NCBI GenBank assembly: GCA_016874535.1 | Contig: VGUA01000001.1 | Coordinates: 105,188-163,455 of the forward strand | Direction of reading: 5' to 3' | Length of the DNA stretch: 58,268 bases | Source: Gammaproteobacteria bacterium | Lineage (GTDB): Bacteria; Pseudomonadota; Gammaproteobacteria; Ga0077536 | Shown: positions 1 through 15,208 of the stretch, one piece after another | Numbering within the stretch: the first letter of the stretch is position 1 | How the letters are laid out: each line of letters starts with the position of its first letter | Notes under the pieces: model-generated | Told to the model about the DNA's origin: nothing | What the model saw: only the letters and a program-made list of their open reading frames with translations | Database searches by the model: none | Made by a program: the position numbers and the translations under genes

Positions 1-794
1 AAGAACACGCCATCGCCGGCCTGCACATCGAACATCGGAATATTGCAGGCTGCGTAGAACCCCCAGAAACCGGTGTAGATCAGGAATATCCCGATAGTCA
101 CCAGCCAGGGATTGTGGGGGTGGATGTTGCGAGGACTGCCGTCCGGGCGGAATTTGCCGATGCGCGGTCCGAGCACGGCGAGGATCCCGAGCGTGAATCC
201 TCCGGCAACGGCATGCACCACGCCTGAGGCGTAAGCATCGTGGTAGCCCAGCTTGGCAACCATCCAGCCCGCGGGGTGCCATCCCCATGCAGCGTCCACG
301 ACCCACAGCACGGAGCCGATGAGGACGGCCAGGATCCAGAACGCGCCAGACCGGATCCGCTCGATGCAATCACCGGAAACGATGGAGGCAGTGGTCCAAG
401 AGAACAGAAGGAATGCAGCGAAGAACACGCCATTAAGCCGCGACCAGAGCGCGGTGTCGGCTGCCGTCAGTTCGCTGCTGACCGGTGTACCGCCCATGTG
501 GGCGGACATAAGCTCGCTCCAGGGCAAGGCAAATGGTGCCGGGATGAGGCCCCCGGTAACCCCGGGTCCGTTCGGCATCGCGGAATAGATCCACCACCCG
601 AACAGGTAGAAGCTGATTCCGACCGTGGGTATGACCATGGTGTTTTTCATCAGCGTGTGCATGTGATTCTTGCGTCGGGACGCACCCACCTCGTACATGC
701 AGAAGCCAACGTGAATCAGGAACATGAAGACCACCGTCACCCAGTAGTAGAACTCGGTGAAAATGACCACCAGTGCCGAGAGATCCTTGTCCAT
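1..794 (-). CDS. amt: Ammonium transporter (Amt family), C-terminus cut by the window edge
   Basis: Minus-strand translation MDKDLSALVVIFTEFYYWVTVVFMFLIHVGFCMYEVG...YASGVVHAVAGGFTLGILAVLGPRIGKF...HPHNPWLVTIGIFLIYTGFWGFYAACNIP: Amt-like membrane helices and the SGVVH...GPRIGKF...HNP motif. Start could also be the in-frame ATG at 808. Confidence 0.85.
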   Translation of the reverse strand, partial: MDKDLSALVVIFTEFYYWVTVVFMFLIHVGFCMYEVGASRRKNHMHTLMKNTMVIPTVGISFYLFGWWIYSAMPNGPGVTGGLIPAPFALPWSELMSAHMGGTPVSSELTAADTALWSRLNGVFFAAFLLFSWTTASIVSGDCIERIRSGAFWILAVLIGSVLWVVDAAWGWHPAGWMVAKLGYHDAYASGVVHAVAGGFTLGILAVLGPRIGKFRPDGSPRNIHPHNPWLVTIGIFLIYTGFWGFYAACNIPMFDVQAGDGVF

Positions 795-1117
795 CCGCCC
801 CCCCATTCGTTGGTTGATGTCGCCAACGGCCAGAGCCGGGAGATTCCCCGGAGGACCGCCGCGACGCTATCGAGGGGGGAGCAAGAACCGTACCTTTGTG
901 GAGCGCGAATCGCTGGTACGTCCGGGACACCCGCAAAGCAGGCCCGAAAACTTCCCCAAGCTCCTGATCTGCCTCGGACGCTGTCAGGCAAGAGCACGCG
1001 TCGGCAGAGCTGCCGACGGTACTACCTGAGCCGCAGTTGCACTGATATCGCCCGGCTGGTCACTGGCGCGCCTCAATTGCGGGCGCCCCACGGCTGACTC
1101 CGGGGCCTGCGCCCACC

Positions 1118-1540
1118 TCAGCGCCGCTGTGGGCCCGGCTGCGCTGCCTTCAGCTCCGCGGCCTTGGCCCGTGCGAGCGCTTCGTCCCCGTATACGAGAT
1201 CCTCGAACAACTGCACCGGCACGACGGGATCGGCACAAAGCTGGCCGACGGCGAAACGCCCGGGGGACGCCTCCACGATCACGTAGAAACCTGCGACCGG
1301 GCCCGGCCTGTGACCGTTGAGCGCATAAAGAATCTTCGCGAGATCCGCATACGCATGACCGTCGTCGATGCCTGCCTCGCCGGAGGCCGCAGGCGCATCC
1401 GAACGCACCCACCGGTGGGGCAGTGTGCCGAGCCCCGTTCCCTCGAGCGGCAGAGTCTGCCCGCCCCGAAACGCCGGGTGCAGCCACCAGCCCTCATCAC
1501 GCGCGAGGGGCACATCGGAAGCCTTGCCGCGGCGACTCAA
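1118..1540 (-). CDS. Small unrecognised protein 'X-1' of DMFase-like cassette 1
   Basis: Open frame ending at 1118; TTG at 1540-1538 overlaps the A2-1 stop (TTGA), matching the ATGA overlap in cassette 2. Homologous by eye to 4466..4846 (shared GPVxGxYVxV..PGxxxVGQLxAD..PVxLxE...Y.D). Confidence 0.65.
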   Translation of the reverse strand: MSRRGKASDVPLARDEGWWLHPAFRGGQTLPLEGTGLGTLPHRWVRSDAPAASGEAGIDDGHAYADLAKILYALNGHRPGPVAGFYVIVEASPGRFAVGQLCADPVVPVQLFEDLVYGDEALARAKAAELKAAQPGPQRR

Positions 1541-3948
1541 GGCAGGGGCCCCGGTTTCAGGAATCCGTCCAGCGCGTTCTTCATCAGTCGCGAGACATTG
1601 TTGTCGTAGCCGTTGTGCGACAGTGAGCCGCACCAGGACATGGAACCGACCGAGAACACCGCGCCATCATTTGGCGTCTTGTAATAGACGATATCGGCCC
1701 GCGTGCGCGGGTTGTTGTCGCCCAAGCTGCCGGGAATGATCCCGCGGGCGTTGAAGGTCGATTCTTCGGTGACCGAGACGAACATGTCCGAATGGCCTTC
1801 CGAGTGCGCCAGCAGGTAGGCCCGATGCGGCGTGCCAAGCTCGAGATCGTAGCGATCAAGTTCCAGCCCGGCAGCGCCACCCCCGACAAGCCCGAAATTG
1901 CCAATCGGCTCGTTGCGCCCGATACCTTTGAACATCCAGCGGCACTCCGGTAGTTCGCTGTCCGGCGCGCGGCGATAGTAGGACGAGTAAGTCAGCCCGA
2001 AGGCAGTGAAAGTCACCCCGAGCAGCTTGCTCATGACCCGCCCGCGGACCCGCCAGAGACCCCCGTGCTTGCCGTCGAATGCGTTGCAGTACTCGCCCGG
2101 CGAGATGGTCCAGGCGCGCGTCCCGTTGTCGCCCTTGCGAACCTCGACGATGTTCGGATTGTCCGGGTGGGGCTGGCAGATCCAGTAAAAGCCATTAGCG
2201 GCCAGATACATGAAGCGCCCGCCCTGATGCTGGTAGTCGTGATAGGCCTGCATCTGCTGTTCGGACATGTATTCCGGGTGATGCCCGGTCAGCACCACCG
2301 GATATTGCTTCAGCAGTGCGACACCCTCGCGCTGCACATCCTCGTCGACGAGGATGTCGACGTCGTATCCCATCTCGAACAGCCAGTCCACCAGATGCAG
2401 ATCCGCGTTGAACTGCCACAGCGACGGTGACAGCACATGGATGTACTTCGGACGCATGTTGAGAATGGGCCGCAACCGCGACGAGATGTTCACACCCCAG
2501 CCGTCGCGGTAGCTGGTGTAGGTACCCAGTCCATAGCCGCGCTCCTTGTTGAGCAGCAGATCACCGGGCTGCAATAACGGCACCTGACCAGTCAGCAGCT
2601 GCGCGATCACGGAATTGACGCTGAGGTTGTCATTCGCGTACGCGAGATAGCTATGCATCGCAACGACGAAGGCAATTTTGGCCGTGGGTCCGTCCGCCGG
2701 CGGTCGCACGAAGAACGGGATGTAGTCTTCACAGTCGGGGTCTGATGATCCATTGACTCGAAGGCGGGCAGCGTAGACCCCGCTCTTCATGGAGGCCGGA
2801 ATCTTCAACCGGAAGGAAGGCTCCCAACGCGCGTCGTCCACGGATTCATCGTGGAAGTGAATCGCACCATACTCCTGGGGCGCGTGCCGGAAGCTCATGT
2901 AATCCGACGACCAGTTGAAGCCCGTCACGCCGCGCACCGGCATATTGACGGCAATGCCATGGAGTCCATGCGGGCCGGCATCCACGATATGGGTGGACGC
3001 GGCATTCTCAGCGATATTCGCACTGAAATCCCACGCGCCGACGATCGCCTCACGCAGCTCACCCGGCAGCTGCTGCACACTGGAGGCGGCAAGCAGCAAT
3101 TCCACCTCGGCCGCAGACAGTGCGCGATTCGCGACACGCGGCCGCTCGATGCGGCCGTTGTACTTGTGGGTGTGCTCCGGCAACTCAACCGGTGCGGCCA
3201 GTTGTGCGTAGTGTGCGCCCTGGACGCTGCGCCCGGATTTGGGCACGAGCGTGCTTGCCGCCATCAGGAAGGGCGCATCGGTCGCGCGCGGCGGACCCAA
3301 GGACGAGCGGTAGCGAACGCTGGCGGCGGTGTCCTCGTGCGGATGGAGCATGCTCATGCCGTGTCCGCCGTTCGTGATGGTGACGTGCGGGATCTGCCAG
3401 ATCCGGACTTCACCACTCGTCGCGTCGTAGGATGCGCCGACCCGATACCACACCTTGCGGAACAGCGGTTTGCGGGTGGAGTACTCGACCAGGCGGCGGC
3501 GTCCGCGCCCGATGCGCAAGGTGAGCTCGCCGGCCTCGTTGATGAACAGGCCGTATCCGGTGTCGGTTTTCGCGTTCCACTTCGTCAAAAGCGCCTGCAT
3601 GCCGACAGGCACGTATTCGCAGTCGACAGTCGGTGTTGTCGGGTAGGCGTAGGCGCAGAGGGTGAAGCTCTCCACATCGAGCCGGGAATCGGCGGGCACC
3701 ATGAGATAGCTCCCCGCGTGCACTGGCTGATGTTGGCCCCGGTAGCGCCCGTTGACCGGGGTGCGCACCACTTTCTCCTTGAACCCCGGCCCCTCCGGAT
3801 TCGTGTCGCCGTGAATCAGCCGCACGATGTCGACCTGATAGGGCTCCTCGAATTCGCTGTGGACATGGAAGCCGATCTCGTCACCGGGCCGCACCGAGCA
3901 GCGGTCCGTGTAACCGGTAATCCTGAGCATCATTTGCTGGGTCGTCAT
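1537..3948 (-). CDS. N,N-dimethylformamidase beta-subunit-like protein, copy 1 (A2-1)
   Basis: 803 aa: MLRITGYTDRCSVRPGDEIGFHVHSE...VRLIHGDTNPEGPGFKE, central LamG-like region, C-terminal ...HSYLAYANDN...LTGHHPEYMSEQQ...; ribosome site AAAGGA upstream. Confidence 0.85.
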   Translation of the reverse strand: MTTQQMMLRITGYTDRCSVRPGDEIGFHVHSEFEEPYQVDIVRLIHGDTNPEGPGFKEKVVRTPVNGRYRGQHQPVHAGSYLMVPADSRLDVESFTLCAYAYPTTPTVDCEYVPVGMQALLTKWNAKTDTGYGLFINEAGELTLRIGRGRRRLVEYSTRKPLFRKVWYRVGASYDATSGEVRIWQIPHVTITNGGHGMSMLHPHEDTAASVRYRSSLGPPRATDAPFLMAASTLVPKSGRSVQGAHYAQLAAPVELPEHTHKYNGRIERPRVANRALSAAEVELLLAASSVQQLPGELREAIVGAWDFSANIAENAASTHIVDAGPHGLHGIAVNMPVRGVTGFNWSSDYMSFRHAPQEYGAIHFHDESVDDARWEPSFRLKIPASMKSGVYAARLRVNGSSDPDCEDYIPFFVRPPADGPTAKIAFVVAMHSYLAYANDNLSVNSVIAQLLTGQVPLLQPGDLLLNKERGYGLGTYTSYRDGWGVNISSRLRPILNMRPKYIHVLSPSLWQFNADLHLVDWLFEMGYDVDILVDEDVQREGVALLKQYPVVLTGHHPEYMSEQQMQAYHDYQHQGGRFMYLAANGFYWICQPHPDNPNIVEVRKGDNGTRAWTISPGEYCNAFDGKHGGLWRVRGRVMSKLLGVTFTAFGLTYSSYYRRAPDSELPECRWMFKGIGRNEPIGNFGLVGGGAAGLELDRYDLELGTPHRAYLLAHSEGHSDMFVSVTEESTFNARGIIPGSLGDNNPRTRADIVYYKTPNDGAVFSVGSMSWCGSLSHNGYDNNVSRLMKNALDGFLKPGPLP

Positions 3949-3962
3949 GCAGGGGTCCTTTC

Positions 3963-4397
3963 TCAGTACGCGAGACCGTAGCGGTCCATCAGTGCGCGCA
4001 GGCGGTGGAGAAAAATGGCGTGCTCGGCGTCTTCACGGGTGGCATGGCGTTCCCGTGTGATCTTGACGACTCCACCGCGTCGTCCCGGCAGGATGCCGAT
4101 GGCGTATTCCTGCCAAGGTATGGTCTCCACAATCGTGTGCTTGCCGGCCTGCGGCACCACCCGCAAGCGGTCAATCAGACGCTTCAAATCCGGGCTGTGG
4201 TTGGGCGGGGGACTGCCCGGCTGGGACGCCGCACCACGTGGATGGGCGCGATGCTCGGCGATGAGTTCGGCGCGCCGCACCGGGTCGCGGAGCGCAGGCA
4301 GGATATAGGTCCGGATGTCATAGTCGTCCACGGTGGTGTAGCCGTAGTCGCGGGCCAGCGCGGTGTCAGGCCCCGTTTTACGTCGTGTCGCCATCAT
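3963..4397 (-). CDS. N,N-dimethylformamidase alpha-subunit-like small protein, copy 1 (A1-1)
   Basis: MMATRRKTGPDTALARDYGYTTVDDYDIRTYILPALRDPVRRAELIAEHRAHP...AGKHTIVETIPWQEYAIGILPGRRGGVVKITRERHATREDAEHAIFLHRLRALMDRYGLAY, directly upstream of A2-1; similar to the A1-2 copy. A GTG at 4469 overlapping the X-2 stop (GTGA) is an alternative start. Confidence 0.75.
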   Translation of the reverse strand: MMATRRKTGPDTALARDYGYTTVDDYDIRTYILPALRDPVRRAELIAEHRAHPRGAASQPGSPPPNHSPDLKRLIDRLRVVPQAGKHTIVETIPWQEYAIGILPGRRGGVVKITRERHATREDAEHAIFLHRLRALMDRYGLAY

Positions 4398-4465
4398 GTT
4401 CCCCGTCTGTCGGGTTGTGCGGCGCAGCCACGCCGCGATGTCATGGGTAGCCCTTGCGGGCCTTC

Positions 4466-4846
4466 TCACAAGCTGCGCGCAGGGGGCCTTTCGCCTCGTT
4501 CCTCGCGCAGGCGCTCGGCGGCGCGTTGCGCCGCCACGGGATCATCGTATTCCATTGTCTCGTAAAGCACGACCGGACGCGCCCGGTCCGCACTCAGTTG
4601 CCCCACGCACCACCGCGCGCCTGGTTGGGTGCAAACCACGACGTAAGCCCCCGGGATGGGGCCGAAGCGTCGGTTGTTCAGTGTAAACAGACATTCGGTG
4701 AGCTGGTTGACGCGGTCAGGGTCCAGATCTCCAAACACCGTGCTCTCCAGCGAGCTCGGTCCGCCCTCGAGTGCCGGCATCACGTGCTTGCCCGTCGGCG
4801 GCGCCACCGGTTTTGCGGCCGACGGTTGCGCTGAGGCGCGTCTCAT
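4466..4846 (-). CDS. Small unrecognised protein 'X-2' of DMFase-like cassette 2
   Basis: 126 aa ORF whose ATG overlaps the A2-2 stop codon (ATGA at 4843-4846); homologous by eye to X-1. Confidence 0.7.
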   Translation of the reverse strand: MRRASAQPSAAKPVAPPTGKHVMPALEGGPSSLESTVFGDLDPDRVNQLTECLFTLNNRRFGPIPGAYVVVCTQPGARWCVGQLSADRARPVVLYETMEYDDPVAAQRAAERLREERGERPPARSL

Positions 4847-7227
4847 GGCAGCGGGCCCGGCTTCAGGAAGCCGTCAAGGACGTTTTTCATGAGCCGTGAC
4901 ACGTTGTTCCGGTAGGCATTGTGCGAAAGGGCACCGCACCACGCGAGCGACCCGGGCGCGAACACCGCGCCGTCGCCCGGTGTCTTGTAGTAGATCATGT
5001 CGGCCCGGATCATCGGGTTCTCGTCGCCACCGCCGTAGTAGCCGCGCACCGTGAAATGGATTTCCTCGTTCACCTGCATCATCAGATCCGTGTGTCCTTC
5101 CGAGCGCGCGAGCAGGAAGGCGTTATGAGGGGTGCCGAACTCGAGGTCGTAGCGATCGATCTCGAGACCGGCGGCGCCGCCGCCCACCAGCCCGAAGTCA
5201 CCGATGATTTCGTCCTTTCCGATGCCTTTGAACATCCATGCGCACTCCGGCCGCAGGCTGTCCGCTTCGCGCCGATAGTAGGTCGAGACATCAAAACCAT
5301 AGCCGGTGAAGGTCAGGCCGCAGACCTTGCTTGGAATTCGGCCGCGGGCGCGCCACATGCCGCCGAATTTGCCATCAAAGGCGTTGTTGTATTCGCCGGG
5401 ATTGGCGGTCCACGCCCGCGTGCCGGCTTCGCCCTTTCGCACCTCGATGAGGTTGCTGTTATCGGGGTGGTACTGGCTGCACCAGTAAAAACCGTTCGCG
5501 CCGAGGTACAGCCAGCGGCCGCCGCCCGCCTGGTAAGCCTCGTAGGCATCAAGCATCTTTTCCGAGGAGTACTCCGGATGGCTGCCCGTCAGCACCATAC
5601 GGTAGCGGTTCAACAGGTCGACGCCCTCGCGGTCCAGATCTTCATCGGTGTGGACATCGAAGGTGTAGCCCATCTGCTCCAGCCAGTCCGTCAAGTGCAG
5701 GTCGGCATTGAACTGCCACAGGGAGGGCGAGAGCCAATGGCGGTACTTCGGGCGCATGTTGAGAATGGGGCGCAGCCGTGAGCTGTAACAGACGCCGCTG
5801 CCGTCAGAATGACACGAGTACGTGGAAAGTCCGTACTCGCGGTGTTCGTTCAGGTAGAGATCCGAGGCATTCATGATGGGCACGCGGCCCGCGAGCAACT
5901 GGGCCACGACCGAGTTCGTTGCGAGGTTGTCGTTCGAGTACGCCATGTAGCTGTTGGTCGGTGCGATGAAGGCAATCTTGGCGGTGGCTTTTCCGCGCGG
6001 CGGGCGCACGAAGAAGGGGATGTAGTCCTCGGTCTCAGGCGAACTCTTGCCGCCGATGCGCAGACGCGCCGCATACACGCCGCTCCGCAGCTTGGCCGGG
6101 ATCGTCCAGCGGAAATCGACCTCCCAGCGCGCATCATCGATGTCATCGTCGTGGAAGTGGATCGCGCCGTATTCCTGCGGTGCGTGATGGTAGACGATGT
6201 CGTCACCGGTCCAGTTGTAGCCCGTCATGCCCCTGACCGGAAGATTGATCGCAAATCCGTTCAGGCGCGCCGGCGAGACGTCCAGAATCTGGCAGGACGC
6301 GATGTTTCGAGTGATGTTGGCGTGGAAGTCCCAAGCCCCAATCACTTTCGCGCGCAGCGCGGCGCTGCAACCCTCGTAGCCCCGCGCGAGCGCATCAATC
6401 TCGGCTTTCGACAACGCTGACCCGGAAACCCGCGGGCGATCGATCTTGCCGTTGTAGCACCAGGTCTGCTCGGGAAGGGCCACTGGCTCTTTCGCTTCCC
6501 GGTAATGTCCGCCGTGGATCGAGCGGCCAGTGTTGGCCTGTGCCGTCGCGGCCGCGAACAGCAAAGGAGCCTCGTTGGCCGCGGGGCGATGTGCACTTTT
6601 TGCCTTCACTGTAGCGCTCGTTTCGCTCGCCGGGTGCAGCAGTGCCATGCCCAGCCCACCGTTGGTCGATGACACGACCGGCTCCTGATACAGCACTACC
6701 TGCCCGCTTTTTGCGTCGTAACTCGCGGCGACGAGATACCAGACCTTGCGCAGCAGCGGCTTGCCGCTGGTGACGGTCGTCAGCTTGCCCCGAGCGCCGC
6801 CAATCATCACGGCGAGGCAGCCGGCCGCATCAACGAACAGGCCGTAGCCGGTCTTTTTGTCGACGTCCCATTTGGTGACGATGCCCTGCATGCCTTTGTC
6901 GTGACAGTAACCATGCGGGCCGGGACCTGGTGTCGTTGGGAAAATGAAGGCCTGCAAGGTGAAGCTCGCGCAGTCGAGTCGCCGATCGTCCGGCACCACC
7001 ACGTAGGAGCCGCCGTGAATGCGCTGGGGCCTGCCCTTCATCCGTGTGTTGCACTCCGCTGCGATCTCCTCCTCCTTGAAGCCCGGTCCCTCCGGATTGG
7101 TGTCGCCGTGGATCAGGCGGACGATCTGCACGTCATAGCGTTCGCCCTGCTCCGAGTTCACGTGAAAACTCAGCGTGTCGCCGGGACACGCGGAATAGCG
7201 GTCGCTGTAGCCGGTAATACGTAGCAT
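4843..7227 (-). CDS. N,N-dimethylformamidase beta-subunit-like protein, copy 2 (A2-2)
   Basis: MLRITGYSDRYSACPGDTLSFHVNSEQGERYDVQIVRLIHGDTNPEGPGFKEEE...; collinear with A2-1 along its length, including ...YMAYSNDN...GSHPEYSSEK...; GGGGGA upstream of the ATG. The track ORF starting at 7350 is over-extended. Confidence 0.85.
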   Translation of the reverse strand: MLRITGYSDRYSACPGDTLSFHVNSEQGERYDVQIVRLIHGDTNPEGPGFKEEEIAAECNTRMKGRPQRIHGGSYVVVPDDRRLDCASFTLQAFIFPTTPGPGPHGYCHDKGMQGIVTKWDVDKKTGYGLFVDAAGCLAVMIGGARGKLTTVTSGKPLLRKVWYLVAASYDAKSGQVVLYQEPVVSSTNGGLGMALLHPASETSATVKAKSAHRPAANEAPLLFAAATAQANTGRSIHGGHYREAKEPVALPEQTWCYNGKIDRPRVSGSALSKAEIDALARGYEGCSAALRAKVIGAWDFHANITRNIASCQILDVSPARLNGFAINLPVRGMTGYNWTGDDIVYHHAPQEYGAIHFHDDDIDDARWEVDFRWTIPAKLRSGVYAARLRIGGKSSPETEDYIPFFVRPPRGKATAKIAFIAPTNSYMAYSNDNLATNSVVAQLLAGRVPIMNASDLYLNEHREYGLSTYSCHSDGSGVCYSSRLRPILNMRPKYRHWLSPSLWQFNADLHLTDWLEQMGYTFDVHTDEDLDREGVDLLNRYRMVLTGSHPEYSSEKMLDAYEAYQAGGGRWLYLGANGFYWCSQYHPDNSNLIEVRKGEAGTRAWTANPGEYNNAFDGKFGGMWRARGRIPSKVCGLTFTGYGFDVSTYYRREADSLRPECAWMFKGIGKDEIIGDFGLVGGGAAGLEIDRYDLEFGTPHNAFLLARSEGHTDLMMQVNEEIHFTVRGYYGGGDENPMIRADMIYYKTPGDGAVFAPGSLAWCGALSHNAYRNNVSRLMKNVLDGFLKPGPLP

Positions 7228-7266
7228 GGGGTCCCCCGCAGTGATTGAGTGGGCGCGTCGACGGGT

Positions 7267-7290
7267 AAAAAAAACCGCGCAATGCGCGGT
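7267..7290 (-). terminator. Rho-independent terminator/attenuator between A1-2 and A2-2
   Basis: On the minus strand: ACCGCGC-ATT-GCGCGGT stem-loop (7274-7280 / 7284-7290) followed by 8 U (complement of A at 7267-7274), abutting the A1-2 stop codon (7290-7292). Confidence 0.8.
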
Positions 7291-7700
7291 CAGTATCCGT
7301 AGGTTGCGAGCAGGTCCCGCACCCGCCTGACGAAAATCGCGTGTTCGCACGCGTCCTCGCTTGGATATCTATGCTCGAGTATCTGCACGGGTTTGCCGCG
7401 CACCCCGGAAGCGATTCCGATGCGATAGTCCGTGTGGGGTGCCACGCAGATTCTCACGTATTTGCCTGCCATCGGCGCGCGCCTGAGCTTGTCGATAACA
7501 CGCGCCAGATCATCGCTGTGCTGGACGCCGCGGCGGCCCGCCTGACCGGGTTTACCGATAGGGTTGTCGCGATGCTCCGCGATGAGCCGATCCCGGGATG
7601 CCGGGTCGACAAGCAGCGGCAGAATGTGGGTGCGGGTGATGAAATCGTCAGTCGCGGAATGGCCGCGGTTGGCCTGGACACCGGTGAGCTTTCTGGCCAT
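7290..7700 (-). CDS. N,N-dimethylformamidase alpha-subunit-like small protein, copy 2 (A1-2)
   Basis: 136 aa MARKLTGVQANRGHSATDDFITRTHILPLLVDPASRDRLIAEHRDNPIG...DLARVIDKLRRAPMAGKYVRICVAPHTDYRIGIASG...SEDACEHAIFVRRVRDLLATYGY; parallel to A1-1. Confidence 0.75.
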   Translation of the reverse strand: MARKLTGVQANRGHSATDDFITRTHILPLLVDPASRDRLIAEHRDNPIGKPGQAGRRGVQHSDDLARVIDKLRRAPMAGKYVRICVAPHTDYRIGIASGVRGKPVQILEHRYPSEDACEHAIFVRRVRDLLATYGY

Positions 7701-7785: not shown

Positions 7786-9162
7786 ATGACCCCACACACC
7801 GCCCCCATCGTGCCCCGTCAATGGCAGGTCGACAGTCCCGGCGAGCTTGCCGACTTGTTTGCGCGCGAACGCATTGAGTTGGTGCACGCGGGGCTTTTCG
7901 ATACCGAAGGTGTGTTCCGGGAGAAACGGTTGCCGGCGAAGCTCGCGCTGCACTATGCGAAAGAGGGCTGGTCCTTCATCGATGCGCTGCCGTTCTGGGG
8001 GCCAAACGATGCGGTGCGTGCAGACCGGGCCTACCACAGCGAACCCTGCGCCATAGACTGTGCCAGTGTGCGGCCCTATCCGTTTGAAGCCAGCGCGGCG
8101 CTGCTGGTTGCGGACTACTGCGGCAACAGCGCCAATCTGTCGCCGCGCACGCTGCTCTCACGTCAGTTGGCGCGCGCGCAGGGAATGGGTTTCCAGGCAC
8201 TGGGGGCCTCGGAATTCGAATTCATCCTGCTGGCCGAAACACCCGCCACGGTGGCGGCGAAGGACTACCAGAGTCTGACCACTCACGCGCAGGAAAACCG
8301 CTGCTGGTCAGGCCTCTACCCGGCGACCGGGGCCGCCTTCCTGCGCGACTATGACCAATGCCTGCGCAGCGGCGACATCCCGCTGCACCACCTCTGTGCG
8401 GAATTGGGCCCGGGTTGTCTGGAAGCGTCCTTGCCGGTGCGGCCACTGCTCACCGCCGCCGACGATGCGGCACTGTTCAAACTCCACACCAAGGCCTTTG
8501 CGATCGAGCGTGGTCACATCGCCTCCTTCATGGCCCAGCTGTCTGATCAGCATCCCGGGCTTGGGGGTCACCCGATCCTTTCGCTACGCAGCACGGCGGA
8601 TGGCACGGCGAGCTTCCACGATGCCGCCGACCCGCTCGGGATTTCCGCGACCTGTCGCCAGTTCATCGCAGGGGTGCTGCATGCATTGCCCGACCTGATG
8701 CCCATGTTCGCCGGGACCGTCAACGCCTACCGGCGCTACGTTCCGGGCAATTGGGCGCCGCGCACCGCAACCTGGGGCATCGACAACTACACCTGCGCCA
8801 TCCGTGTTGTCGCGGGCGCGCCGGACGATTGCCGTATCGAATTTCGCCTGCCGGGGGCGGACACCAACGCCCATCTGGCGTTCGCCATGTTGCTTGGGGC
8901 CGGACTCGACGGCATCGAGCGTCGCCTGGAGGCTCCGCCAGCCACCACAACCCTCGGGCGCGAGCTCGTGCACCCCGGGATCGGTCCGCTGCCGCGCACC
9001 CTCCTGGAAGCTGCGGAGCGCATGGCCGCGAGCCCGCTGGCGCGGCGTTTTTTCGGTGATGCCTTCGTCGACCACTACACGGCGTCCTGCATCCAGGAGG
9101 ATCACCTCATGCGTCGCCACGTGCCGGCGTTCGAGCGGGCACGGTACCTGCATCACGTTTGA
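7786..9162 (+). CDS. Glutamine synthetase-fold ligase, paralog 1
   Basis: ...ASEFEFILL...ELGPGCLEASLPVRP...GGHPILSLRS...GTVNAYRRYVPGNWAPRTATWGIDNYTCAIRV...: GS catalytic-domain landmarks. Confidence 0.85.
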   Translation: MTPHTAPIVPRQWQVDSPGELADLFARERIELVHAGLFDTEGVFREKRLPAKLALHYAKEGWSFIDALPFWGPNDAVRADRAYHSEPCAIDCASVRPYPFEASAALLVADYCGNSANLSPRTLLSRQLARAQGMGFQALGASEFEFILLAETPATVAAKDYQSLTTHAQENRCWSGLYPATGAAFLRDYDQCLRSGDIPLHHLCAELGPGCLEASLPVRPLLTAADDAALFKLHTKAFAIERGHIASFMAQLSDQHPGLGGHPILSLRSTADGTASFHDAADPLGISATCRQFIAGVLHALPDLMPMFAGTVNAYRRYVPGNWAPRTATWGIDNYTCAIRVVAGAPDDCRIEFRLPGADTNAHLAFAMLLGAGLDGIERRLEAPPATTTLGRELVHPGIGPLPRTLLEAAERMAASPLARRFFGDAFVDHYTASCIQEDHLMRRHVPAFERARYLHHV

Positions 9163-9209: not shown

Positions 9210-10676
9210 ATGACAGCCTTGGAAACCTATGTGAAGGACGCCCAACGGATGGAGGGCGTGAAGAAAGTACGCGCGCTCATCAATTCGCTCGGTATCGAAT
9301 ACATCTACTACCAGTTCGTGTCGGTGACCGGTCGCATCGTCGGCAAGGGAGCACCGGCCGACCACTGGGAACGGCTGGCGACCAAGGGCTTCCAGCTCGT
9401 TTACGGCTCCACGGCCAACCTTTTCATCAGTCGCAAGGGTCGCTACCTGGGCTACGGGCCCGAGGCCAGCGAACTGGTGGGTATAGCCGACCCCGAGACG
9501 TTCGTGCAGTTGCCTTGGGAGCCGCGCGTCGCGCGCGTGTTCTGCACACTGTTCCGCAACCGCGAGGAGCCTGTCTACCCGGGTGGTTTCCTCACGTCCG
9601 ACTGTCGCGGCAACCTGAAACGTATGCACGCCGCGTTCGAAAAGAAGCATGGCCTGCGCCTGCGGCTGGGCACCGAGCCAGAAATGATGTGGCTGAAGAA
9701 GGGCCCGGACGGCAAACCGGACGGTGGCGTGACCCGCCCGTACTGTTACCACATCGATCAGTTCGAGGAGCTGCGCCCGCTGACTCTCAAGGTCAACGAG
9801 TACTGCCGCAAGATGGGACTCGACATGATTCAGGGCGACCACGAGGATGCGCCCGGCCAGCTCGAACTCAATTGGGCTTTCGATGATGTGCTGCGCACCT
9901 CGGATCGCCTCACCACCTATCGCCAGATCTGCGCGCAGGTGGCCCGCGAATTCAATGTCATCGCCTGCTTCATGACCAAGCCGTTCATGCGCCTGTCGGC
10001 CAACGGCTGCCATCACAATTTTTCGCTGTGGAAGGGTGGCAAGGATGTGGTGAACCACTTCGGTGGCCTGTCCAAACACGGGATGTCGGATGTCTACACC
10101 TACGTGACAGGGGGGCAGAACAAATTTGATCCGGAGGGAGACGATCCGCGCATGCCGGGCCAAATCGGGGTGCGGGCTGCTGGCGGCATCGTGCGTCACC
10201 TGCCGGCCCTCACAGCACTCGGTGCCTCGACAGTCAACTCCTATCGACGCCTGCTCGATCAGGGATATTGGGCGCCGGTCTACAACAATTGGGGTTACCA
10301 GAACCGCACCTGTGCGTTGCGCGTTTCAGCGCCGGGCCGCTTCGAATATCGCGCGGTCGACTCGATGGTCAATCCTTACCTGCTGAACTCCGCACTGCTG
10401 GCGGTGATGGATGAGGGGATCTCGAAAAAGCTCGACCCTGGTCCGCTGGAGCAGCGCAACATCTACGAGCTCGAGCTCGCCGGCAAGAAAGTGGTGAAGC
10501 TGCCGTCGAACCTCGGTGCCGCGCTCGATGCGATGGAGGCTGACTCCCTTGTGCGCAGTGCGCTGCCCGGCGAGATGTGGGATGTCTTCATCGACTACAA
10601 GCGCGACGAGTGGGACAAATTCATGGCCACAGTCACGCAATGGGACCACGATACCTACATGGACTGTCTGCCCTGA
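9210..10676 (+). CDS. Glutamine synthetase-fold ligase, paralog 2
   Basis: ...LGTEPEMMW...GDHEDAPGQLELNW...NGCHHNFSLWK...ASTVNSYRRL...WAPVYNNWGYQNRTCALRVSAPGRFEYRAVDSMVNPYL; GGAGG upstream of the ATG. Confidence 0.88.
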   Translation: MTALETYVKDAQRMEGVKKVRALINSLGIEYIYYQFVSVTGRIVGKGAPADHWERLATKGFQLVYGSTANLFISRKGRYLGYGPEASELVGIADPETFVQLPWEPRVARVFCTLFRNREEPVYPGGFLTSDCRGNLKRMHAAFEKKHGLRLRLGTEPEMMWLKKGPDGKPDGGVTRPYCYHIDQFEELRPLTLKVNEYCRKMGLDMIQGDHEDAPGQLELNWAFDDVLRTSDRLTTYRQICAQVAREFNVIACFMTKPFMRLSANGCHHNFSLWKGGKDVVNHFGGLSKHGMSDVYTYVTGGQNKFDPEGDDPRMPGQIGVRAAGGIVRHLPALTALGASTVNSYRRLLDQGYWAPVYNNWGYQNRTCALRVSAPGRFEYRAVDSMVNPYLLNSALLAVMDEGISKKLDPGPLEQRNIYELELAGKKVVKLPSNLGAALDAMEADSLVRSALPGEMWDVFIDYKRDEWDKFMATVTQWDHDTYMDCLP

Positions 10677-10693: not shown

Positions 10694-11578
10694 ATGAAGG
10701 AATTCGAGATCAGCGACAACCAGGTTGAGGACTTCGAACGCGACGGCTTCATCGTCGTTGACCGCATCATCAGCGACGAAGAGGTCGCCTTGCTGCGTGA
10801 GCGCTACGATCTCCTGTTCAAAGGGCAATGGGAAACAGGCCTCGTGCCGGACGAGGTCAACTGGCAGGAGGGGCGCGATCCCCCAGACAGCACGCGCCAG
10901 ATCTGCAACGGTTGGAAGTCTGATCGTTATGTGGCGGGTGTGATCCTCCAGGAGTCAATCGGGCGCGCCTGTGCAAAGCTCGGCCGCTGGCCCGGCACCC
11001 GCCTCAGCCAGGACAACATTCTGTGGAAGCCACCCGGCGGCAAGCCGCTGGGTTTCCATCAGGATTCCTCTTATGAGCTCTGGACCACGCTCCCGGACTG
11101 GGTGAGTTGCTGGATTGCGCTGGACGACACCACCGCCGAGGGTGGCACCGTTGAATACGTGCGTGGTTCGAATCATTGGGGCCGCTCGGGCATGATTGAG
11201 CAGTTCCACGCGCCCGAAAACCCCGTGAAGGATCTCGACAAGGCGGCGGCCGCAGCGGGCGTGAAGACGATTGAGCGCGTGCCCATCGTGGTGAAGGCCG
11301 GAGGCGGTGCGTTCCACGGCGGATGGACCTGGCACGGATCCGACATCAATCGGCGCGATGTACCGCGCCGCGCGATAGTGGCGCACTGCATGTCGAGCGA
11401 GACGCGCTTCCACCCCACCTACGTTGGCTACATCTACAGCCGCTACAAGCGGTTCGGCGATGACACGATGGACGAGTCCTTCTTCCCGGTGACGTGGCGG
11501 CAGGATGGCTATCGATCGCCTTTCATAGATCCCTATTCCGCGCGACGCATCACCTGGGGCGAAGCGCTACCAACATGA
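10694..11578 (+). CDS. Phytanoyl-CoA dioxygenase (PhyH)-family Fe(II)/2-oxoglutarate oxygenase
   Basis: ...DGFIVVDRIISDEEV...LGFHQDSSYELWTTLPDWVSCWIALDDTTAEGGTVEYVRGSNHW...GGGAFHGGWTWHGSDINRRDVPRRAI: HxD...H motif of PhyH proteins. Confidence 0.85.
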   Translation: MKEFEISDNQVEDFERDGFIVVDRIISDEEVALLRERYDLLFKGQWETGLVPDEVNWQEGRDPPDSTRQICNGWKSDRYVAGVILQESIGRACAKLGRWPGTRLSQDNILWKPPGGKPLGFHQDSSYELWTTLPDWVSCWIALDDTTAEGGTVEYVRGSNHWGRSGMIEQFHAPENPVKDLDKAAAAAGVKTIERVPIVVKAGGGAFHGGWTWHGSDINRRDVPRRAIVAHCMSSETRFHPTYVGYIYSRYKRFGDDTMDESFFPVTWRQDGYRSPFIDPYSARRITWGEALPT

Positions 11579-12294
11579 GGCCGCCCCGACTGGGCTTGCT
11601 CGCTTGCGACAGGCTGTGGGAGCCACTGCGCTCGGCCCACGGCGACTACGCCGAGATGTATTCCGCACTGTTGCGCGCCGCCGGTGCCGAGTTCGAGCTG
11701 GTATCGTGGGCGGTATATGCCGGCGAACTTCCTGCCAGCAGCGAGGCGTGTGATGCTTGGCTCGTCTCCGGATCACGTGCATCGGCCTTCGAAGATCGAC
11801 CGTGGATCGCTCCGCTGTTGGAGTTTGTGCGCGCCACCCACGCGACCGGCGTGCGTCAGGTGGGGATCTGCTTCGGTCACCAGGTGCTGGCCCACGCCCT
11901 TGGCGGCCGGGTCGAGCGTGCAGCGGGTGGCTGGGGGCTTGGCAATATCGAACTCACGCTGCGCGATCGCGCGGGCGTTCCCTCGAATGTTCCGGATCGT
12001 CCGCAGCTGTTCATGGCGCATCAGGATCAGGTGGTGAAACTCCCGCCGGGTGCCATGTGGCTCGCCGAGGCACCGCACTGTCCCCATGCGATGTTTGCAC
12101 TGGGCGGATCCACGCTCGGCATCCAGCCACATCCCGAATTCTCGGCCGCCTTCATGCGCGACATGACTCTGGACCAGTCCCTCAACCTTCCGGAGCCGCT
12201 GCGGGCGCAGGCGCTTGCGAGCTATGCGGCGCCGGTCGACAGCCTGGTGGTCGGGCGCTGGATCGCGCAATTCCTCGGCTTGCAGCGGGCCTGA
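11575..12294 (+). CDS. Class I glutamine amidotransferase-like protein
   Basis: ...RQVGICFGHQVLAHALGG...GIQPHPEFSAAF: nucleophile GICFGHQ and HPE triad; ATGA overlap with the PhyH stop. Confidence 0.87.
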   Translation: MRPPRLGLLACDRLWEPLRSAHGDYAEMYSALLRAAGAEFELVSWAVYAGELPASSEACDAWLVSGSRASAFEDRPWIAPLLEFVRATHATGVRQVGICFGHQVLAHALGGRVERAAGGWGLGNIELTLRDRAGVPSNVPDRPQLFMAHQDQVVKLPPGAMWLAEAPHCPHAMFALGGSTLGIQPHPEFSAAFMRDMTLDQSLNLPEPLRAQALASYAAPVDSLVVGRWIAQFLGLQRA

Positions 12295-13604: not shown

Positions 13605-13732
13605 CAGGCTTGCTCCTGCGAACTGGCAGTGGTTTTGGTCGAGTGAAGTAGCGGCCTCGCTGCGATTTGCGTTGGCGACCCCCGTTCCCAGCCATATACT
13701 CAACTGGCCCATCCAAACGCAAGGGGACGGTC

Positions 13733-15208
13733 ATGAGCTCGATTCAGGACGGCAGCGTTGGTCAGGTCGATTTCATCACCCGCCATGGGCTCTACTCCGA
13801 TGAGCAACGCGAGGCCATTTCCCGCCTCAAGGCCGAGATCGAGCGTCTCGGGCTGCGCACCATCCGCATCGCCTGGTGCGATCAGCACGGACTGGTGCGC
13901 GGCAAGCATGTGATGGCGCACGACTTCCTGCTGGCACTGCGCAACGGCATCGACTTCCAGACCGCCACGCTCTTCATGGACACCACCAACAATCTGGCCG
14001 TACCGATGTTTGCAAAACAGGGCGGTGGAATCGGTGTCGCTTCGCTCTGCGGTGGGCCGGACGCCATCCTTGTGCCGGATCCGCTCACCTTTCAGGTGCT
14101 GCCCTGGGCGAAGAGCACCGGTTGGATACTGTCAGAGATGTATCTTAACAGCGGCGAGCCCATGCCCTTCGACACGCGCGCGCTTTTCAAGCGTCTGCTT
14201 GCGCAGAACCGCGCCAAAGGCTACGACTGGATTGGCGGTCTCGAGGTAGAGTTCTACATCTGCAAGCTCGAGGATCGCATGCTGCAGCCCGAGCAATCAG
14301 GCTGGCCGCCGGATCCACCGAAAGTCTCGGCGATTGCCCATGGCTTCCAGTACCTCACCGAAGAGCGGCAGGACGAAATCGATCCCATCCTGCAGATGCT
14401 GCACGACAACCTCTCACAGCTTGGCCTGCCGCTGCGCACGATGGAGGACGAATGGGGTCCGGGCCAGTGCGAGTTCACTTTTGATCCCACGCGAGGGGTC
14501 ACCAGCGCAGACCAGATGGTGCTGTTTCGCACGGCCACCAAACAGTTGTGCCGTCGGCACGGCTATCACGCCACCTTCATGACCCGTCCGGGTCTGCCCA
14601 ATTTCTTCTCCAGCGGCTGGCATTTGCATCAGTCGCTGTGCGATGTGAACAGCGGCGCCAACCTCTTTGCCAACATGGGCGACAGTGATGAGGTGCTCTC
14701 GCCGCTTGGCCGGCATTTTGTGGGCGGCCTGCTGGCGCACGCGGCGCCGGGTTGTGTGTTCTCGACACCCACCATCAACGGCTACAAGCGTTATCGCCCC
14801 AATTCCTTCGCCCCGGATCGCATCACCTGGGCCAGTGAAAATCGTGCGGCGATGATTCGCGTGCTTGGTGGGCCCGGCGATCGTGCTTCGCATATCGAGA
14901 ATCGCGCCGGCGAACCCTGCGCCAATCCCTATCTCTACATGGGCTCGCAGCTGGTGGCCGGCATGGACGGCGTGGCGCGCAAGCTCGACCCCGGCCCGCT
15001 GGAAGAAACGCCCTACGAATCGGCCAACGCCAAGCTGCCGCGCAGTCTCATGGAAGCCACTGCCGCGCTACGCGAGAGCAAGGTGTTTCGCGAGGGCTTT
15101 GGCGATGCCTTCGTTGACTACATGTTGTTGTTGAAGCAGAGCGAGATCGATCGCTTCCTGCAGCATGTGACCGACTGGGAGCATCGCGAATATTTTGAAA
15201 TGTTCTAG
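13733..15208 (+). CDS. Glutamine synthetase-fold ligase, paralog 3
   Basis: ...LEVEFYICK...DEWGPGQCEFTF...SSGWHLHQSL...TINGYKRYRPNSFAPDRITWASENRAAMIRV: GS motifs with canonical HxH. Confidence 0.88.
   Translation: MSSIQDGSVGQVDFITRHGLYSDEQREAISRLKAEIERLGLRTIRIAWCDQHGLVRGKHVMAHDFLLALRNGIDFQTATLFMDTTNNLAVPMFAKQGGGIGVASLCGGPDAILVPDPLTFQVLPWAKSTGWILSEMYLNSGEPMPFDTRALFKRLLAQNRAKGYDWIGGLEVEFYICKLEDRMLQPEQSGWPPDPPKVSAIAHGFQYLTEERQDEIDPILQMLHDNLSQLGLPLRTMEDEWGPGQCEFTFDPTRGVTSADQMVLFRTATKQLCRRHGYHATFMTRPGLPNFFSSGWHLHQSLCDVNSGANLFANMGDSDEVLSPLGRHFVGGLLAHAAPGCVFSTPTINGYKRYRPNSFAPDRITWASENRAAMIRVLGGPGDRASHIENRAGEPCANPYLYMGSQLVAGMDGVARKLDPGPLEETPYESANAKLPRSLMEATAALRESKVFREGFGDAFVDYMLLLKQSEIDRFLQHVTDWEHREYFEMF

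Follow-up and report, generated by a model that had tools for sequence, protein, structure and literature searches.

The window analysed here, a 58,268-nucleotide stretch of contig VGUA01000001.1 (assembly GCA_016874535.1, positions 105,188-163,455), carries six minus-strand genes at window positions 1118-7700, in the order A1-2, A2-2, X-2, A1-1, A2-1 and X-1, as the initial annotation had reported. They form two cassettes of the N,N-dimethylformamidase (DMFase) type, each with a small-subunit gene (A1), a large-subunit gene (A2) and a further small gene, X, lying directly 3' of A2 (Table 1). The two A2 proteins are indeed collinear, with 60% identity over their full length, while A1-1 and A1-2 match over 130 amino acids (aa) with E 9e-35 and X-1 and X-2 share 35% identity (E 1e-14). 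A motif that had been quoted as common to both A1 proteins holds for A1-1, where it includes AEHAIF, but reads CEHAIF at this point in A1-2.

The start codon of X-2 overlaps the stop codon of A2-2 in an ATGA junction, and the most likely start of X-1 is the TTG at 1540, which overlaps the stop of A2-1 (TTGA). A 4-base start/stop overlap of this kind is present at 28 of 41 loci, which suggests coupled translation of A2 and X. Between A1-2 and A2-2 there is a terminator-like hairpin (window 7273-7291, minus strand; 8 pairs, then 8 T) that could reduce transcription into A2-2 and X-2. The idea that it is a conserved control of stoichiometry was rejected, as none was seen in relatives.

Table 1. 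Genes of the two cassettes and their neighbours, in window coordinates (GS, glutamine synthetase; GATase, glutamine amidotransferase).
Gene	Position	Strand	Description	Evidence
A1-2	7290..7700	-	DMFase-type small subunit, type 2, 136 aa	6lvb_B, E 0.0015 as single sequence; AlphaFold2 model, TM score 0.73 to 6lvb_B
A2-2	4843..7227	-	DMFase-type large subunit, type 2, 794 aa from ATG at 7227	PF20254, 6lvb_A, Fe ligands
X-2	4466..4846	-	Shortened, diverged small-subunit paralogue, type 2, 126 aa	
A1-1	3963..4397	-	DMFase-type small subunit, type 1, 144 aa from ATG at 4397	44% identity to A1-2; family profile match to 6lvb_B
A2-1	1537..3948	-	DMFase-type large subunit, type 1, 803 aa	PF20254, 60% identity to A2-2, Fe ligands
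X-1	1118..1540	-	Shortened, diverged small-subunit paralogue, type 1, 140 aa from TTG	
Amt	1..806	-	Amt-family ammonium transporter gene, 5' part	Continues beyond the left end of the window
GS1	7786..9162	+	GS-like ligase, divergent from the cassettes	PF00120, E 6e-72; below NCBIfam cut-offs for true GS
GS2	9210..10676	+	GS-like ligase	Closest solved relative: glutamate-methylamine ligase 9qur, E 1.2e-59
PhyH	10694..11578	+	PhyH-type Fe/2-oxoglutarate dioxygenase	PF05721, E 5e-20; HxD and distal His motifs
GATase	11575..12294	+	Class I GATase-like hydrolase	Closest solved relative: gamma-glutamyl peptidase 1, E 7e-20; Cys in GICFG, HPE motif

Both large subunits match PF20254 (DMFA2_C), A2-1 with E 4e-88 and A2-2 with E 5e-97, and among solved structures A2-2 is closest to the large subunit of Paracoccus DMFase (6lvb_A, E 9e-186), whose whole-length identity to the two A2 proteins is 44% and 40%. 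The comparison of 63 full-length A2 proteins, spanning type 1, type 2 and an outgroup, showed no exception to the residues that bind iron (Y399, Y440 and E521) and serve in catalysis (H519) in the Paracoccus enzyme (PMC7686228). The A1 family profile matches the DMFase small subunit 6lvb_B (E 8.8e-12), the AlphaFold2 model of A1 resembles the same chain with a template-modelling (TM) score of 0.73, and the A1 gene directly precedes A2. A1 and A2 are therefore DMFase-type subunits, alike to Paracoccus DmfA1-DmfA2 (6lvb; PMC7686228) in whole-length A2 homology, iron ligands and histidine, A1 homology and A1-A2 gene order, and the kinship proposed in the initial annotation is upheld, A2 not being of an unrelated family. 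N-acetyl-(R)-beta-phenylalanine acylase (8i5a, 8huy) also has a homologous large subunit (E 3e-130), more distant than that of DMFase, and it shows that the family extends to larger N-acyl amides. At DMFase position 547, near the active site, both A2 proteins of the window have Asn; among type-2 A2 proteins of relatives this active-site Asn is replaced by Asp in 9 of 21, a natural variant near the iron. The core of the A1 model is alpha-beta-beta-beta-alpha, with its elements ordered as in double-stranded-RNA-binding domains; such domains come up in the fold search, though without reaching significance.

Neither Pfam nor NCBIfam gave a credible match for X, and nothing was found in the literature on a third dmf gene. 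The first hint of kinship with A1 was a search with X-2 that matched an A1 gene (L017) with E 3e-5. Because iterated A1 and X profiles mix both families, they were discarded in favour of clean profiles built by gene position alone, A1 being the small gene before A2 and X the small gene after it. Compared by hhalign, the two profiles scored 97.0% (E 1.1e-10, 60 columns), against no more than 2.1% in 200 column shuffles and 0.2% for a reversed profile; by subgroup, outgroup A1 and type-2 X scored 95.8%. In six-frame searches of 36 whole genomes of the window's gammaproteobacterial family, the X-only profile recovered X copies adjacent to A2, and its further matches were eight A1 genes (E 4e-5 to 9e-4) and one 31-residue fragment (G029).

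The AlphaFold2 models tell a similar story. The model of A1 has helices at 12-31, 33-45, 63-73 and 115-133 and strands at 81-87, 91-96 and 106-112, and that of X has helices at 42-55 and 102-116 and strands at 61-73, 77-85 and 91-99, with the same alpha-beta-beta-beta-alpha core. X is without a counterpart of the A1 N-terminal helices 12-31 and 33-45, which include the helix that wedges between large subunits. X also varies more than A1, with a mean column identity of 36% (33-row alignment) compared with 56% (29-row alignment). X as a diverged, N-terminally shortened paralogue of A1 is thus well supported by sequence, and is consistent with, though not proven by, structure. The initial annotation had treated X as a third component of the functional unit; its conservation in the unit is borne out, but it is not an independent component.

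The A2 tree places 38 of the 63 full-length large subunits in one clade with full support (Shimodaira-Hasegawa-like approximate likelihood ratio test), and this clade contains every full-length X-bearing locus. Within it, every locus has X except where the contig ends and in two loci from Binatia, and none of the 25 A2 genes outside it is followed by X, one of the 25 ending at a contig edge. One locus (L014) has A2-X with A1 after rather than before. The conserved three-gene unit that had been proposed is thus found elsewhere, apart from the absence of X in the two Binatia loci. Trees of A1, A2 and X show the same split into two types (support 100/100 for A1 and 99/96 for X), and this congruence indicates that the three-gene set was duplicated whole, before the family diversified; whole-unit duplication, as originally suggested, is therefore correct, and it is ancient. 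When A1 and X are placed in one small-subunit tree, the X sequences group together (100/99), but a long-branched alphaproteobacterial X (L013) shifts there from type 2 to the type-1 side. A single derivation of X from A1, predating the duplication of the three-gene set, is the best explanation of its origin.

Counted by large-subunit and X matches in the 36 family genomes, type 2 is present in 23, type 1 in 23, both in 22 and neither in 12, a co-occurrence with a Fisher p of 1.3e-7, not corrected for kinship. The X profile has no match in 398 other Pseudomonadota genomes sampled evenly, nine of which carry a DMFase-like A2, and X as a widespread family was rejected on this absence. Outside the family, A1-A2-X occurs on a few alphaproteobacterial and unclassified contigs of metagenome-assembled genomes (MAGs) and on one short contig labelled Armatimonadetes. 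Public relatives are labelled, for example, Gammaproteobacteria bacterium Ga0077536 or as Lake Baikal MAGs, and four loci (L007, L016, L019, L020) titled as Klebsiella pneumoniae MAGs match the window's family, so that these labels look wrong. A third DMFase-like A1-A2 pair, without X, is present in the same genome (L005:8495-10771; G000:C22:10491-12761) and, by inspection, the genes after it encode a luciferase-like flavin monooxygenase and a cupin-like protein. An insertion in A2 around DMFase position 230 was considered as a docking site for X and rejected, as the A2 of the Binatia locus L011, which lacks X, also carries it.

These results are best explained by two paralogous DMFase-type iron amidases, each encoded by A1, A2 and X, with X most likely in the same complex, a reading given a probability of about 0.68. 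A2 would hold the iron site, with two Tyr, one Glu and the catalytic His, and A1 would act as the normal small subunit. X, a shortened and diverged second small subunit, would most likely associate with A1-A2 and stay in the finished enzyme. Its alpha-beta-beta-beta-alpha core would probably pack on A2 close to the substrate channel, in the manner of A1 in DMFase, but X would be unable to form the contact between large subunits made by the N-terminal helix of A1. A1 would have given rise to X once, the three-gene set would then have been duplicated whole, and the two sets would have diverged, probably in substrate, and stayed together. A fuller version, in which X is a third subunit class in an A1-A2-X heterotrimer and the two enzymes are kept as a pair feeding a gamma-glutamyl-amine pathway, is put forward tentatively, at a little under even odds.

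Several observations weigh against a complex with X, whose role as a subunit is inferred, as are its packing and all substrates. The X profile matched no PDB sequence, 6lvb_B included, and the X model had no significant match among PDB folds; 6lvb_B is among the best by probability and TM score of the 50 matches listed, with E 0.86 and a TM score of 0.33. The subgroup comparison of type-1 A1 with type-1 X reached only 28.6%. The two Binatia loci have a type-1 A1-A2 pair without X and 7 kb of sequence after A2, so that X is dispensable for that enzyme. DMFase (EC 3.5.1.56) is a two-subunit (alpha-beta) enzyme that hydrolyses dimethylformamide to dimethylamine and formate. On the question of substrates, Paracoccus DMFase prefers small formamides (PMC7686228).

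An A1-derived X could instead be a dedicated assembly or iron-loading factor of A2 that is not in the finished enzyme. Synteny, the start/stop overlap and homology to A1 would be equally expected of such a factor, and the faster evolution of X, its missing N-terminal helices and its dispensability in Binatia fit it. However, X has been kept and has diverged with each A2 type, as expected of a specific and lasting partner, and the outgroup A2 proteins with the same iron ligands have no X, so that a role confined to assembly is considered unlikely, if still worth keeping in mind.

A lower standing is given to a mixed holoenzyme of A2-1 and A2-2, which would explain why both cassettes are retained. 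Both types are found in 22 of the 24 X-carrying genomes, even when unlinked, and F693, which in DMFase extends from one large subunit into the active site of its neighbour (PMC7686228), is kept in both A2 types. The two types nevertheless have different operon partners in relatives, one genome (G019) has type 2 only and another (G029, 73% complete) type 1 only, and the contigs retrieved for Binatia and for alphaproteobacterial MAGs carry one type, which together make a mixed enzyme distinctly improbable. That the likeness of X to A1 is superficial, X being an unrelated small alpha-beta protein recruited beside A2, would suit its lack of significant matches to 6lvb_B and to PDB sequences, but is very hard to reconcile with profile scores far above the shuffled and reversed controls, with the A1 genes picked out by the X-only profile in whole genomes and with the identical order of helices and strands.

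The initial annotation described a tandem duplication, and in this respect it does not hold. A recent local duplication in this strain would account for the head-to-tail order in the window and in G030, the only two places where the cassettes lie back to back, but it is refuted by the A1, A2 and X trees and by the distribution, each A2 copy being 84-88% identical to orthologues in other genera against the 60% shared with its neighbour. The cassettes of G005, of the same genus, flank the GS1-GS2-PhyH-GATase block; they are a few kb apart in G013 and 78 kb apart in G022, and in most other genomes they lie at a great distance or on different contigs. The Amt gene directly follows X-2 in G005 and G002, whereas in the window the two are separated by cassette 1. 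The side-by-side cassettes are thus a juxtaposition of ancient paralogues, found across a bacterial family, and not a fresh tandem duplication. In the A2 tree the type-1 copy of the window lies nearest to that of G030, which is assigned to a different genus, and not to that of G005, and the joined block may therefore have moved between lineages.

The expectation that the copies had diverged is supported by type-specific residues and by different gene neighbourhoods. The GS1-GS2-PhyH-GATase block, whole or partial, adjoins cassettes in at least five relatives, and the Amt gene, complete in L004 (14576-15994), matches PF00909 (E 2e-52). In other genera, type-1 cassettes are followed by genes for enoyl-CoA hydratase and EthD, or by major facilitator superfamily and short-chain dehydrogenase/reductase genes with an acyl-CoA dehydrogenase gene nearby. 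The contrast between GS-like, GATase, PhyH and Amt genes beside type 2 and acyl-CoA genes beside type 1 suggests that the two types act on different substrates. GS-like ligase, GATase-like hydrolase and oxygenase are encoded together, as in the gamma-glutamyl-amine (GoaS-type) pathway, and the simplest reading would be amide hydrolysis in which the amine enters a gamma-glutamyl route (type 2) and the acid CoA routes (type 1). On the preferred reading of two A1-A2-X enzymes, type 2 would release an amine that is processed by the glutamate-amine-ligase-like enzymes, the PhyH oxygenase and the gamma-glutamyl-peptidase-like hydrolase, and type 1, judged from relatives, would serve an acyl-CoA-linked route.

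A make-up of ligase, GATase and oxygenase is also that of AtdA1-A2-A3-A4-A5 for aniline and NpaA1-A5 for 1-naphthylamine (PMC11335346), although here its function is putative, the oxygenase is of the PhyH type in place of a Rieske dioxygenase, and the block adjoins DMFase-like amidases. An X-less A2 (L056; G019:C196), which at 55% identity is closer to Paracoccus DMFase than are the window copies, adjoins GS1- and GS2-like genes, and the association with GS-like genes may therefore predate X. A third GS-like gene, GS3 (window 13730-15208, plus strand), lies beside a PNPOx-like gene and does not adjoin the cassettes in most relatives.

The known DMFase operon has two structural genes (PMC4543880), and the cassettes described here differ from it in the small-subunit paralogue X after A2 and in the two co-retained types. 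Paracoccus aminophilus JCM 7686 likewise has two DMFase-like loci, the second dmfA1-dmfA2 locus not being linked to use of dimethylformamide (PMC4543880), but these are described as two-gene loci with no X mentioned. What is new, and well supported, is therefore the third gene in a DMFase-type cassette, the DMFase kind itself being already known.

To our knowledge, the iron site and unusual folds of DMFase are known from one characterised enzyme type. The family described here suggests that this two-part enzyme probably has a three-part form, and a natural three-gene version with a copied and shortened small subunit offers a handle on the role of the small subunit in substrate entry, stability and range. 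In turn, the ligase, oxygenase and transporter genes beside the cassettes point to amide substrates in nature for a family whose members are known chiefly from the degradation of an industrial solvent.

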